Of a stretch of 34,306 nt of DNA, positions 7,981 to 31,716 are shown piece by piece (position 1 is the stretch's first letter; each line of letters starts with the position of its first letter). The translations under genes and the position numbers were made by a program. Origin of the DNA: Bacteroidales bacterium (GTDB lineage Bacteria; Bacteroidota; Bacteroidia; Bacteroidales; WCHB1-69); contig JAKSMF010000006.1 in the NCBI GenBank assembly GCA_024400775.1, forward strand, positions 1 to 34,306, read 5' to 3'. A model generated the notes under the pieces. It searched no databases and had not been told where the DNA came from. It saw only the letters and a program-made list of their open reading frames with translations.

Positions 7981-9867
7981 TTACATCATTTCAACGCTGC
8001 GTTTTACAAATTCGCTCAGTTTTTCACCGGTCAGCAGGTTTTGTGACAGCAATGCCAAGTCGATGAGTTGCTGCGTCATCTGTTCTTTCTTGGCTTCGTC
8101 GCCTTCTTCCAAAATCTTGGATGCGAGCGGATGGTTGCCGTTGACCACGAGGTTGTAGCGGTCGAAGTTGCCGAACATACCGTTGTTCTGGCCCGACAGT
8201 TTCTGCATGTCTTTGAAACGGCGCATGAACTCGTTTTGCGTGATCATGATGGGCAGCTCGGTTTCACTGAGGTTGGCAATTTCAACTGTAAACATCTCTT
8301 TATTAGCGCATTTCTCGAATGCTTCCTTCAATGACGTCTGCTCGGCTTCGGAAAGTTTTGCGGGCATCACTTCGTCTTTTTCGATGAGTTTGTCCATGAC
8401 GTCGGCATCTACGCGGGCAAAACGGCACTTCTCGATTTTGGGCTCCAACAGGTTGATGAAGTGAGTGTCCAAAAATCCATCCATCAACAAAACATCGTAG
8501 CCCTTCTCCTTAGCCGACTGAATGTAAACGTGTTGCGTCGCCAGATCGTGAGCGTAGAGGTAAACGACAATGTCGTTTTTGTCCTTCTGACGGGTTTCGA
8601 TGCCGGCACGATATTCGTCCATCGTGTAGTATTTGCCGTCCACGTTCTTGAAAAGGATGAAGTTTTTGGCTCTTTCGTAAAACTTTTCGTCAGTGAGGCA
8701 GCCGTATTCGATGAAGACCTTGAGGTCATCCCACTTCTTTTCAAAATCCTCGCGGTTGTTTTTGAACATCTCCTCCAGTTTGTCGGCCACCTTTTTGGTG
8801 ATGTGGGTGGAGATTTTCTTGACGTTGGAGTCCGACTGAAGGTAGGAACGGGAAACGTTGAGCGGGATGTCGGGCGAATCGATGACACCATGGAGCAGCA
8901 TCATGAATTCAGGGATGACACCTTCGAGTTGGTCGGTGATAAATACTTGATTACAATAGAGTTGTACTTTGTTTTTCTGCATTTCCAGTTGGTTGCGCAC
9001 CTTCGGGAAATAGAGGATGCCGGTGAGGTTGAAGGGATAATCGACATTCAGGTGGATTTGGAAAAGCGGTTCTTCAAAGGTCATCGGATAGAGCTCGCGA
9101 TAAAATTCGAGGTACTGCTCCGGAGTGATGGAAGAGGGCGTCTGCTTCCATAACGGATTGGTATTGTTGATGATGCGGGGATATTTCACCTCCACTTCCT
9201 TCACTTCTTCGCCCTCTTTGGCTTCGGCGTTTTCGGGCTTCTCCCACTTGGTCTCGTCACCGCAGCGAATCGGAATGGGGAGGAAGCGGCAGTATTTGCG
9301 CAGAAGCTCCACGATTTTGGCTTCATCAAGAAATTCCATGGCGTCATCGGCGACGTGCAATACAATGTCGGTACCGCGGTCGGCCTTGTCGGTTTCGCCC
9401 ATTTCATAGTCGGGGGAACCTGTGCAGGTCCATGTAACCGCTTTCGTATCATGCTGGTACGATTTTGTGCAGATATCTACCTTTTCGGAAACCATAAATG
9501 CGGAATAGAAACCGAGCCCGAAGTGACCGATGATGTTGCCGCCTTCGACCTTGAATTTTTCCAGAAATTCTTCCGCGCCCGAGAAGGCGATCTGGTTGAT
9601 GTATTTATCTACCTCTTCGGCGGTCATGCCAATACCGCGGTCGCTCACCGTAATCGTCTTCGCATCCTTGTCCACCTTCACCTGAATGGTGAGGTCGCCC
9701 AGCTCACCATCGAATTTGCCCATGGTGGCAAGCGTCTTCAACTTCTGTGTCGCATCTACTGCGTTGGAAATCAGTTCTCTAATGAAAATGTCGTGTTCTG
9801 AATACAAAAACTTCTTGATGACGGGAAAAATGTTCTCGGTCTGTACGTTGATTTGTCCTTTGTTCAT
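7981..9867 (-). CDS. htpG: Hsp90-family molecular chaperone HtpG
   Basis: 628 residues, full length for a bacterial Hsp90. The GHKL ATP-binding site is intact: ELISNAVDA (Glu31, Asn35), SDRGIGM (Asp76, Gly78, Gly80) and GHFGLGFYSAFMV (114-126). The middle domain contains the catalytic arginine region QLEMQKNKVQLYCNQVFITD and NVSRSYLQSD. The C-terminal dimerisation domain ends in the expected helical segment. It is an ATP-dependent cytosolic chaperone active under stress. The gene stands alone: an exact sigma-54 promoter match and an inverted repeat precede it, and a large heptamer hairpin follows it. This suggests its own stress-responsive transcript. Confidence 0.97.
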   Translation of the reverse strand: MNKGQINVQTENIFPVIKKFLYSEHDIFIRELISNAVDATQKLKTLATMGKFDGELGDLTIQVKVDKDAKTITVSDRGIGMTAEEVDKYINQIAFSGAEEFLEKFKVEGGNIIGHFGLGFYSAFMVSEKVDICTKSYQHDTKAVTWTCTGSPDYEMGETDKADRGTDIVLHVADDAMEFLDEAKIVELLRKYCRFLPIPIRCGDETKWEKPENAEAKEGEEVKEVEVKYPRIINNTNPLWKQTPSSITPEQYLEFYRELYPMTFEEPLFQIHLNVDYPFNLTGILYFPKVRNQLEMQKNKVQLYCNQVFITDQLEGVIPEFMMLLHGVIDSPDIPLNVSRSYLQSDSNVKKISTHITKKVADKLEEMFKNNREDFEKKWDDLKVFIEYGCLTDEKFYERAKNFILFKNVDGKYYTMDEYRAGIETRQKDKNDIVVYLYAHDLATQHVYIQSAKEKGYDVLLMDGFLDTHFINLLEPKIEKCRFARVDADVMDKLIEKDEVMPAKLSEAEQTSLKEAFEKCANKEMFTVEIANLSETELPIMITQNEFMRRFKDMQKLSGQNNGMFGNFDRYNLVVNGNHPLASKILEEGDEAKKEQMTQQLIDLALLSQNLLTGEKLSEFVKRSVEMM

Positions 9868-9912
9868 ATTATTATGTTTTTATTGATTACAAAATTTGAC
9901 AGTCGTTTTGTC

Positions 9913-9924
9913 GACGCCGGCGTC
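9913..9924. promoter_or_regulatory. Perfect 12-bp palindrome at the predicted htpG transcription start
   Basis: GACGCCGGCGTC is a perfect dyad. It overlaps the position (near 9918) where transcription would start if the sigma-54 element at 9929-9945 is used. It could be an operator or an early mRNA hairpin; nothing in the sequence identifies a binding protein. Confidence 0.45.
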
Positions 9925-9928
9925 TTGC

Positions 9929-9945
9929 TGCAATTCTCGTGCCAA
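9929..9945 (-). promoter_or_regulatory. Sigma-54 (RpoN) promoter of htpG
   Basis: The minus strand reads TTGGCACGAGAATTGCA. This matches every position of the -24/-12 consensus TGGCACG-N4-TTGC(A/T), with the required spacing. The predicted start is near 9918, giving a 5' leader of about 50 nt before the htpG ATG at 9867. An inverted repeat suitable for an activator lies just upstream. No TAnnTTTG box was found closer to the gene. Confidence 0.75.
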
Positions 9946-9956
9946 AGCTGTCGGGG

Positions 9957-9969
9957 TGACAAAATGTCA
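9957..9969. promoter_or_regulatory. Inverted repeat TGACA-AAA-TGTCA upstream of the htpG promoter
   Basis: A perfect 5+5 bp dyad with a 3-bp spacer, centred about 45 bp upstream of the predicted htpG start. A related half-site (GTCGGGG/CCCCGAC) follows. Sigma-54 promoters need an enhancer-binding ATPase, and this dyad is a candidate binding site. It could equally be a repressor operator. Confidence 0.5.
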
Positions 9970-28653: not shown

Positions 28654-31600
28654 ATGGAAATTAGCTATACATCTTATAAAACCACCCTTCACCCGAAAGA
28701 TCGGCTCAAGGAAAAAAACTTCGAGCAAGACATTGAAACCTACCTTCTCAACGAAGGCGGTTACATCAAAGGAGACCAAAGCACCTACGACAAGAAGCGG
28801 GCGATTGATATGCCCGTGCTGTTGCAGTTCATTCAGAACACACAGCCGAAGGTGTGGCAACGCTATGTGAACCTTTATGGCGAAAAGTCGAGCGACCAGC
28901 TCTACAAGGTTTTCCAACAAGATGTCGCCAACTACGGTTTGGTTCACGTCCTGCGAAACGGTATCAAGGACAGGGGCGTGGCCATCAGGTTCTGCTACTT
29001 CAAACCGAGCAGCAATCTCAATCAGGACCTGGTGGACCGCTACAACGCCAACATCCTGCAATGCACCCGGCAGTTCGCCTATTCCACGCAGAATCACAAC
29101 ACCCTTGATATGGTGCTTTCCGTGAACGGCATTCCCGTAATTGCCCTGGAACTGAAAAACCAGCTCACCGGACAGACGGTCGCCAATGCCAAGCATCAGT
29201 TTATGTACGACCGCGACCCGAAGGAGCTTATCTTCAACTTCAACACCCGCATTCTCGCCTACTTTGCCGTTGACCTCTACGAAGTGGCAATGACCACCCA
29301 GCTGCAAGGCGACAAAACCCGCTTCCTTCCGTTCAACCAAGGCAGCAACGGAGCGGGCAACATCGGCGACGGCGGCAATCCTGAAAATCCCAATGGCTAT
29401 TCAACCTCATACCTTTGGGAACGTGTGCTGCATCGTGAGATGCTGCTATCTTTGTTGCAACGATACATCTCCAAGATTACGGAAGAAAAAATTTCTCTCG
29501 TAAAAGGCAAGCAGGAGAAGAAGAAAAAGACCTTCCTGATTTTCCCCCGCTATCACCAGTTGGACGTGGTGGAGAAACTCATTGCCGACACCAAGGCGAG
29601 CAAGGAGGGAAAGAACTATCTGTTGCAGCATTCGGCGGGCAGCGGCAAGTCCAATTCGATTGCGTGGCTGTGCTACCGTCTGGCTTCCCTTCACAACGAC
29701 TTGGACAAGGAAATGTTCCAAACCGTTTTCGTGGTAACGGACAGACGAGTGCTCAACTCCCAACTTCAATCCACCATTCTTGGATTCGAGCATTTAGAAG
29801 GCCAGATTGAAACCATCACCGACAACGACAACTCCTCCAAACTCAAGGATGCCATCAACGACAAGAAGCGCATCATCATCACCACTTTGCACAGATTCCC
29901 GATTATCTATAAAGAGTTGGACGAACACATCGGCAAGAACTTCGCCATTATTGTGGATGAGGCGCACAGTTCGCAATCGGGCAAAAGTGCCGAGAAACTG
30001 AAGGCGGCATTGGCGGATACCGACGAGGCATTGAAGGAAATGGCGGAAATCGAGGAAAAAACGGAGGAGGAAATCAAGGACGAAATGGACTTGATGACCG
30101 AAACACTGCTCACGCAAGGCCAGCACAAGAACCTATACTTCTACGCCTTCACCGCCACCCCGAAGCCCAAGACTTTGGAAACTTTCGGTGTGAAGACCGC
30201 CAAAGGATACGATGCTTTTCACCACTATTCAATGCGGCAGGCCATTGACGAAGAATTTATTTTGGACGTACTTCAATTCTACACCACCATAGAAACCTCC
30301 TACGAAATTGCCAAGTCCGTTGAGGAAAATCCCGAATACGAGGAACCGCCAGCGACACGGGCGGTCAAGGCCTACCACGACAATCACGAATTTGTGGTCA
30401 ATCAGATGGTGGAAGTGATGGTGGAGAAGTTCCGTGAAATCACTTTGAACAAGATTGGCGGCAACGCAAAGGCGATGGTGGTGTCGCCATCACGCGCCCA
30501 CGCCGTCCGATTCTACTTTGCAATGAAAGACTATTGTAAGAAGAAGGGCTATGACGAAGTGAAACCTTTGGTTGCGTTCAGCGGCACGGTGAAGTACAAC
30601 GAAACCGAATACACCGAAAGCCAAATCAACTCGGCGGACGGACAGAAGATTACGGAGGCGAAACTCCCCTTGTTCTTCGCTTCAGAAATGTACAACATTC
30701 TGATTGTAGCCGACAAATATCAGACGGGGTTCGACGAACCTTTGCTCCATACGATGTTCGTGAACAAGAAACTCAAAGGAGTGAAGGCGGTGCAGACACT
30801 TTCCCGCCTGAACCGCAGCTGCGCTGGCAAGAACGACACCTACGTTTTGGATTTCGTGAACGATACGGAAAGTATCAAGCAGTCCTTCCAACCCTTCTTC
30901 GAGGACACGCTGTTGGAGGAAGGCGTGGATGTCAATATGGTTTACAAATATCTGAACGATATCCAGCAATACCATTTGTGGAATCAGGATGACGAGGAGA
31001 AGGTTTACGGGATATACAGCACCAAGAAACAGAGCAGCACCGATATGGGCAAGTTGGCGGGGGCGTTCAAATCCATAATGGCGGCATACGAAGACCTATT
31101 GATAGAGGACAAGTTCAAAATTCGTTTCCTTATCCGCAACTTCAACCGTTTCTACGCCTATATGGCACAGGTCGTCCGCACATTTGACAAAGAGTTATAC
31201 AAGACCTACGTCTTCACCGAACTGCTTTACAAGTTGCTGCCGAAGAACGCACACGAGAAGGTGGACTTGACCAACAAACTTGCCCTAATCAACAACAAGC
31301 TGACGGAAACTTTCAGCGGCAGCATTCAGTTGGAACACGGTAAGAACAAGGTCAAGGCGGAGAATGGCGGCAAGGGGGCTTTCAAGGAGGAGAAGCGTGA
31401 TTTGTTGGCGAACATCATCGACAAAATCAACCTGATGTACGCAGGTCAGTTCACTGAAGCGGACAGGGTAATTGTGGAAACCATTTTCGACAGGATGAGC
31501 AAGAGCAATGCCGCATTGAAGAAGCAGGCAAAGAACACCGATGCCGCTATGTTCGCATCGGCAATCTTCCCGAAGGCGTTTCAGGAAATCGCCCAGCAGT

Positions 31601-31716
31601 GCTATATGGAATCAATGGACGCATTCGCCAAGCTGTTTGAGGACCCGCAATTCTACGAGAGAGTGATGAAGGAGATGGCGGAGGCAATGTATTTGCGGCT
31701 GCGAAACGGTAAGTAA
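28654..31716 (+). CDS. hsdR: Type I restriction endonuclease subunit R
   Basis: 1020 residues. The N-terminal nuclease domain carries Asp152 (TLDMVLS) and Glu166-x-Lys168 (IALELKNQ). The SF2 translocase has Walker A LLQHSAGSGKSNS (Gly331-Lys332), the DEAH-like box VDEAHSSQSG (434-443), motif III FTATPKPKTLETFG, and motifs V and VI in KYQTGFDEPLLHTMFVNK and QTLSRLNRSCAGKND. A helical C-terminal part binds the methylase core. It translocates and cuts unmodified DNA. The first 18 residues (MEISYTSYKTTLHPKDRL) are not those of the other hsdR 5' copies in this window, which begin M-x-TKEKNFE. The 5' end was evidently rebuilt when the ATPase unit was inserted. Otherwise full length and intact. Confidence 0.95.
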   Translation: MEISYTSYKTTLHPKDRLKEKNFEQDIETYLLNEGGYIKGDQSTYDKKRAIDMPVLLQFIQNTQPKVWQRYVNLYGEKSSDQLYKVFQQDVANYGLVHVLRNGIKDRGVAIRFCYFKPSSNLNQDLVDRYNANILQCTRQFAYSTQNHNTLDMVLSVNGIPVIALELKNQLTGQTVANAKHQFMYDRDPKELIFNFNTRILAYFAVDLYEVAMTTQLQGDKTRFLPFNQGSNGAGNIGDGGNPENPNGYSTSYLWERVLHREMLLSLLQRYISKITEEKISLVKGKQEKKKKTFLIFPRYHQLDVVEKLIADTKASKEGKNYLLQHSAGSGKSNSIAWLCYRLASLHNDLDKEMFQTVFVVTDRRVLNSQLQSTILGFEHLEGQIETITDNDNSSKLKDAINDKKRIIITTLHRFPIIYKELDEHIGKNFAIIVDEAHSSQSGKSAEKLKAALADTDEALKEMAEIEEKTEEEIKDEMDLMTETLLTQGQHKNLYFYAFTATPKPKTLETFGVKTAKGYDAFHHYSMRQAIDEEFILDVLQFYTTIETSYEIAKSVEENPEYEEPPATRAVKAYHDNHEFVVNQMVEVMVEKFREITLNKIGGNAKAMVVSPSRAHAVRFYFAMKDYCKKKGYDEVKPLVAFSGTVKYNETEYTESQINSADGQKITEAKLPLFFASEMYNILIVADKYQTGFDEPLLHTMFVNKKLKGVKAVQTLSRLNRSCAGKNDTYVLDFVNDTESIKQSFQPFFEDTLLEEGVDVNMVYKYLNDIQQYHLWNQDDEEKVYGIYSTKKQSSTDMGKLAGAFKSIMAAYEDLLIEDKFKIRFLIRNFNRFYAYMAQVVRTFDKELYKTYVFTELLYKLLPKNAHEKVDLTNKLALINNKLTETFSGSIQLEHGKNKVKAENGGKGAFKEEKRDLLANIIDKINLMYAGQFTEADRVIVETIFDRMSKSNAALKKQAKNTDAAMFASAIFPKAFQEIAQQCYMESMDAFAKLFEDPQFYERVMKEMAEAMYLRLRNGK

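Follow-up and report, generated by a model that had tools for sequence, protein, structure and literature searches.

A putative activator site beside a sigma-54 promoter recurs before htpG and other chaperone genes of Bacteroidales

Bacteroidota are a dominant phylum of the gut. Their chaperone genes are known to have sigma-54 promoters, and the activator that serves these promoters is not named in the literature we examined. Which protein this might be, and at which DNA site it might act, are questions raised by a single htpG locus that had been read as an exact sigma-54 promoter with a perfect dyad just upstream. The locus lies in a window of 34,306 nucleotides, the whole stretch of DNA analysed here, which is contig C121 of a Bacteroidales-type draft genome (2.12 Mb in 164 contigs, approximately 80% complete). 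Its elements are the following.

7981..9867, minus strand: htpG (Hsp90), the regulated gene; 628 aa, Pfam HSP90 1.8e-51, homologues 60-90% identical
9868..9918, minus strand: predicted 5' untranslated leader of the htpG mRNA, from the geometry of the sigma-54 promoter
9929..9945, minus strand: sigma-54 -24/-12 promoter element TTGGCACGAGAATTGCA, exact consensus, the sole strict match in the window
9957..9969, minus strand: putative activator-site dyad TGACATTTTGTCA, 12 nt upstream of TGGCA, centre at about -45

The nearest named relatives of this htpG are Bacteroidales MAGs. Elsewhere in the window, positions 28654-31716 (+) encode a 1020-aa protein with the domains of a type I restriction subunit R (HSDR_N, SWI2_SNF2 and ResIII).

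Both the promoter and the dyad of the original prediction held up. The element at 9945-9929 is the single match to TGGCA[CT][GA]-N4-TTGC in the 34.3 kb window, and within it TGGCACGAGAATTGC (9944-9930, -) fits TGGCAC/T-N5-TTGC/T with its GG and GC 10 nt apart. The dyad is perfect and is likewise the only TGACA-N3-TGTCA in the window. The promoter had been placed 50-60 bp upstream of the htpG start codon; its location stands, and the distance has to be corrected to the 62 nt that separate the end of TGGCACGAGAATTGC from the ATG at 9867. Transcription is predicted to begin about 12 nt after the -12 GC, some 50 nt from the ATG, and relative to this start the dyad extends from about -51 to -39. 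Attention had also been drawn to the palindrome GACGCCGGCGTC at the predicted start. It is present and centred there (9913-9924, -), as one of nine perfect 12-nt palindromes in the window, and it is absent from all ten nearest relatives. We therefore dropped it as a functional part.

Genome-wide scans, carried out as pattern and family searches, revealed that rpoN is present (PF04552, E 9e-46; a 502-aa open frame). The strict sigma-54 pattern had 7 matches in the genome compared to 2 for controls. Because some of these matches fall inside genes (e.g. L003 and L008) and the genome-wide signal is weak, we rejected the pattern by itself as proof of a promoter.

We compared 80 related htpG loci, anchoring each on its best sigma-54-like site. 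Such a site was found upstream of htpG in 75 of the 80, and 39 of these site-bearing loci had TGNCA-N3-TGNCA at a gap of 10-13 nt, an arrangement that occurred 0 times in 2000 in shuffled sequence. The spacer of the dyad was almost wholly A/T, and many of the other 36 loci carried a near-variant of the dyad in the same slot (e.g. L045, L066 and L071). At the htpG spacing, the pair formed by dyad and sigma-54 site is strongly conserved, beyond chance. L041, L043 and L048-L053 kept the sigma-54 site and had no dyad; together with L044, these loci belong to one group of relatives in which the htpG dyad was lost and the sigma-54 site retained. In several members of the group, a GC-rich hairpin-like repeat (CAGGGGTG...CACCCCTG) adjoins the htpG promoter.

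Within the window's genome, we counted 3 copies of the exact 13-mer TGACATTTTGTCA (opposite strand TGACAAAATGTCA), where approximately 0.2 would be expected. One precedes htpG, one precedes dnaK, and the third lies 59 nt ahead of the start codon of the gene for an AAA+ protein that we call P0001. The remaining three TGACA-N3-TGTCA places have other spacers and apparently lie within coding sequence. Searching for the pair before other chaperone genes, as the original prediction had suggested, yielded dnaK in this genome, where the identical 13-mer and an exact sigma-54 site are separated by 84 nt from dyad to TGGCA, and chaperone genes throughout the order and the phylum.

For the order, we scanned 294 Bacteroidales genomes for TGACA-N3-TGTCA followed after 3-33 nt by TGGCA-N6-TTG, with the reversed pattern as control. 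The pair was found in 47 places and the control in 1. The gaps between dyad and promoter were 10-13 nt (32 places), 21-24 nt (8), 27 nt (1) and 30-33 nt (6). The cluster at 10-13 nt has a p of 4e-18 when compared with uniformly distributed gaps; of the 15 remaining gaps, 14 fall within 21-24 or 30-33 nt (p 4e-7). The clusters were drawn up after the data were seen, and both values ignore shared ancestry, with sister species included. Clustering at these three distances means that the dyad keeps to a single side of the helix as seen from the promoter. In 38 of the 47 places the downstream gene, named by eye from its N-terminal sequence, was htpG (10), a clpB-type gene (8), dnaK (7), grpE (7), groES (4) or hsp20 (2). 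A phylum-wide scan of 392 genomes returned 21 pairs and 0 controls, mostly before dnaK in other orders of the class and with a gap of 12-13 nt.

Two further candidates did not survive this survey. Among 11 groES loci of the window's genus, we found no convincing sigma-54 site or dyad, and groES was rejected as a member of the chaperone set in that genus. Control by HrcA and CIRCE was rejected as well: hrcA (PF01628) was found in 0 of 59 family genomes, and there is no CIRCE element in the 300 nt before htpG. In single genomes, the pair precedes ferritin-, OsmC- and thioredoxin-like genes (L150, L137 and L280), a hint of a connection with oxidative stress. Near position 1501 (+) of L194, in genome C78, a sigma-54-like site TTGGCATACAGGTTGT and a one-mismatch dyad TGACAATTTGACA have the same 12-nt spacing to TGGCA; the product of the gene behind them is at least 457 aa long and was not recognised by eye.

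The genome encodes two full enhancer-binding proteins (EBPs), P0001 on contig C44 and another on C16. P0001 has an N-terminal AAA+ domain (PF00158, residues 18-184), a C-terminal Fis-type helix-turn-helix (PF02954, HTH_8, residues 355-396) and no sensor domain. Its GAFTGA loop motif is the variant GAFSGA, and a GAF[ST]GA-type motif is present in most of the orthologues examined. In P0001 orthologues the recognition region AAxELGISERTLYRKIKEYGL is nearly invariant, which fits an operator that hardly varies. The P0001 gene is directly followed by an lptE-like frame, an identification made by eye and from the EBP-LptE gene order reported in PMC9723704. The EBP on C16 (L015 2415-1240, -) consists of a receiver and an AAA+ domain and stops after the AAA+ lid; since it has no helix-turn-helix, P0001 is the only DNA-binding EBP found in the genome. 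As a receiver-AAA+ regulator without a DNA-binding domain, the C16 protein could perhaps work on sigma-54 promoters while free in solution. P0001 is a good candidate for the enhancer-binding regulator that had been proposed for the dyad.

EBPs were present in all 48 family genomes (47 of at least 93% completeness and the window's genome), with exactly one in 22 of the 48 and 2-6 in some. The single-EBP genomes include G059, G060, G064 and G067 of the window's genus, which identical EBP match coordinates tie to the htpG loci L031, L024, L025 and L026, and in each of them htpG carries the dyad and sigma-54 pair. In the window's genome, the copy of the 13-mer before the EBP gene (L009 1441-245, -) lies immediately before a housekeeping-type TAAATTTG box, an arrangement that could reflect autoregulation by the EBP. 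No dyad was seen before the EBP gene in the relatives examined, so the link between dyad and EBP gene comes from one genome, and autoregulation was rejected as a general rule.

We consider it likely that sigma-54 transcribes htpG and that the dyad is the site of its activator, with P0001 as the best candidate. In the mechanism we propose, sigma-54 RNA polymerase would transcribe htpG from the -24/-12 element at 9945-9929, and the dyad at 9957-9969 would bind a dimer of a Fis-type helix-turn-helix activator, most plausibly the sensorless, PspF-like P0001. Bound at about -51 to -39, approximately one helical turn upstream of -24 and on a fixed face, the dimer would build its AAA+ ring against the upstream side of the closed complex formed with sigma-54, touch sigma-54 directly or with minimal bending of the DNA, and remodel that complex. 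The same module would drive dnaK in this genome and dnaK, grpE, groES, clpB and hsp20 in relatives, and would represent the Bacteroidota form of the heat-shock regulon in genomes without HrcA. Binding of the dyad by P0001, activation by P0001, and protein-folding stress as the signal are what we infer from this arrangement. As P0001 has no sensor domain, the signal would have to arrive via another protein. PspF is an EBP controlled by its inhibitor PspA, and our guess, by analogy, is a chaperone-linked inhibitor that acts on P0001 in trans.

The position of the dyad bears on how such an activator would work. EBPs bound at upstream sites act by looping (PMC3844500, PMC7175178), and their sites commonly lie 70-150 bp upstream, although other distances are known (PMC3844500). 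The htpG dyad is outside this range and the dnaK dyad lies at its 84 nt from TGGCA; we regard the range as typical rather than defining. Because two- and three-turn versions of the module occur, in addition to the distance at dnaK, DNA looping may be possible as well. In its broadest form our proposal is that one dedicated sensorless sigma-54 activator, sitting on TGACA-N3-TGTCA beside -24 on a fixed helix face and acting with little or no looping, runs the cytoplasmic heat-shock response of Bacteroidota, with a chaperone-linked inhibitor probably setting its activity in trans. We judge the case for and against this broad form to be evenly balanced. If true, it would add a third heat-shock control logic beside sigma-32 and HrcA.

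The main competing explanation retains the sigma-54 promoter and assigns the dyad to some other protein, a repressor or an accessory factor positioned against the polymerase, with the EBP acting from elsewhere or from solution. It would account for a dyad that is unusually near the promoter for an EBP site and for the several relatives that have the htpG sigma-54 site without a dyad, and activation from solution is possible in principle for the one EBP of this genome that has no DNA-binding domain. However, the family genomes have no HrcA, the 13-mer also precedes the EBP gene, the phased positions at two and three turns suit an activator better than a steric repressor, and the 5-3-5 layout of the dyad agrees with that of a site bound by the EBP LuxO (PMC3352281). 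On balance, we find a separate repressor unlikely. It is more doubtful still that the dyad is read by a different EBP that the draft genome lacks. Another EBP could be missing, since the draft is incomplete, and some family members have several; yet single-EBP genomes of the genus and the family still carry the module. Finally, a fortuitous sigma-54-like match, with htpG driven by a housekeeping promoter, seems very improbable despite the strict matches inside genes, given the conservation and fixed geometry of the pair, a nearest housekeeping-type TAnnTTTG -7 box that lies at -244 (the single match in the 300 nt upstream of htpG, with none within 240 nt), and the htpG sigma-54 promoter with a mapped transcription start site (TSS) in Flavobacterium psychrophilum (PMC9723704).

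Activation by P0001 from the dyad thus remains our preferred explanation. Because it joins a conserved operator to a single candidate protein, the question of the activator can be put to a direct test in Bacteroides or Flavobacterium species that grow in culture. The close, phased site would also offer a natural system in which to study activation by an EBP that sits right beside RNA polymerase; according to a review, the influence of site binding on EBP activity is unknown because the site is missing from the structures obtained to date (PMC7175178).

Several known systems resemble the one proposed here. The original prediction treated sigma-54 control of an Hsp90 gene as a departure from the usual; the reading stands, but such control is less unusual than first thought because Bacteroidota are already known to place chaperone genes, htpG among them, under sigma-54. 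In F. psychrophilum, sigma-54 (SM4) promoters have been TSS-mapped for htpG, dnaK, grpE, groES, lon and clpB, and the accessible part of that paper lists three candidate EBPs with the activator not assigned among them (PMC9723704). The sigma factor, the -24/-12 motif and target genes including htpG are alike in the two cases; the species belongs to another order, and the same part of the paper describes no operator (PMC9723704). A 2025 in-silico survey of sigma-54 regulons found Bacteroidota chaperones, with Hsp90 in Bacteroidia, enriched behind sigma-54 promoters, and a search of its text returned no upstream site, inverted repeat or palindrome (PMC12316311). Our literature searches, with most subscription papers outside their scope, found no description of the dyad and do not prove novelty; within the searchable literature, the helically phased operator close to the promoter and our attribution of it to the EBP encoded beside lptE, both predictions from sequence, appear to be new. 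HrcA/CIRCE and sigma-32 heat-shock control act on the same kind of target genes, and the HrcA/CIRCE system differs in the two components, repressor and element, that were missing above (hrcA from 59 of 59 family genomes). PspF, the phage-shock activator, shares with P0001 an AAA+ domain, a Fis-type helix-turn-helix and the lack of an N-terminal sensor domain; the targets differ, and the PspA-like inhibitor that PspF has is only conjectured for P0001. Lastly, LuxO is an EBP whose box, TTGCA-N3-TGCAA, lies upstream of a sigma-54 promoter and shares the inverted 5-3-5 arrangement of the dyad; the half-site sequences differ, and LuxO, unlike P0001, has a receiver domain (PMC3352281).
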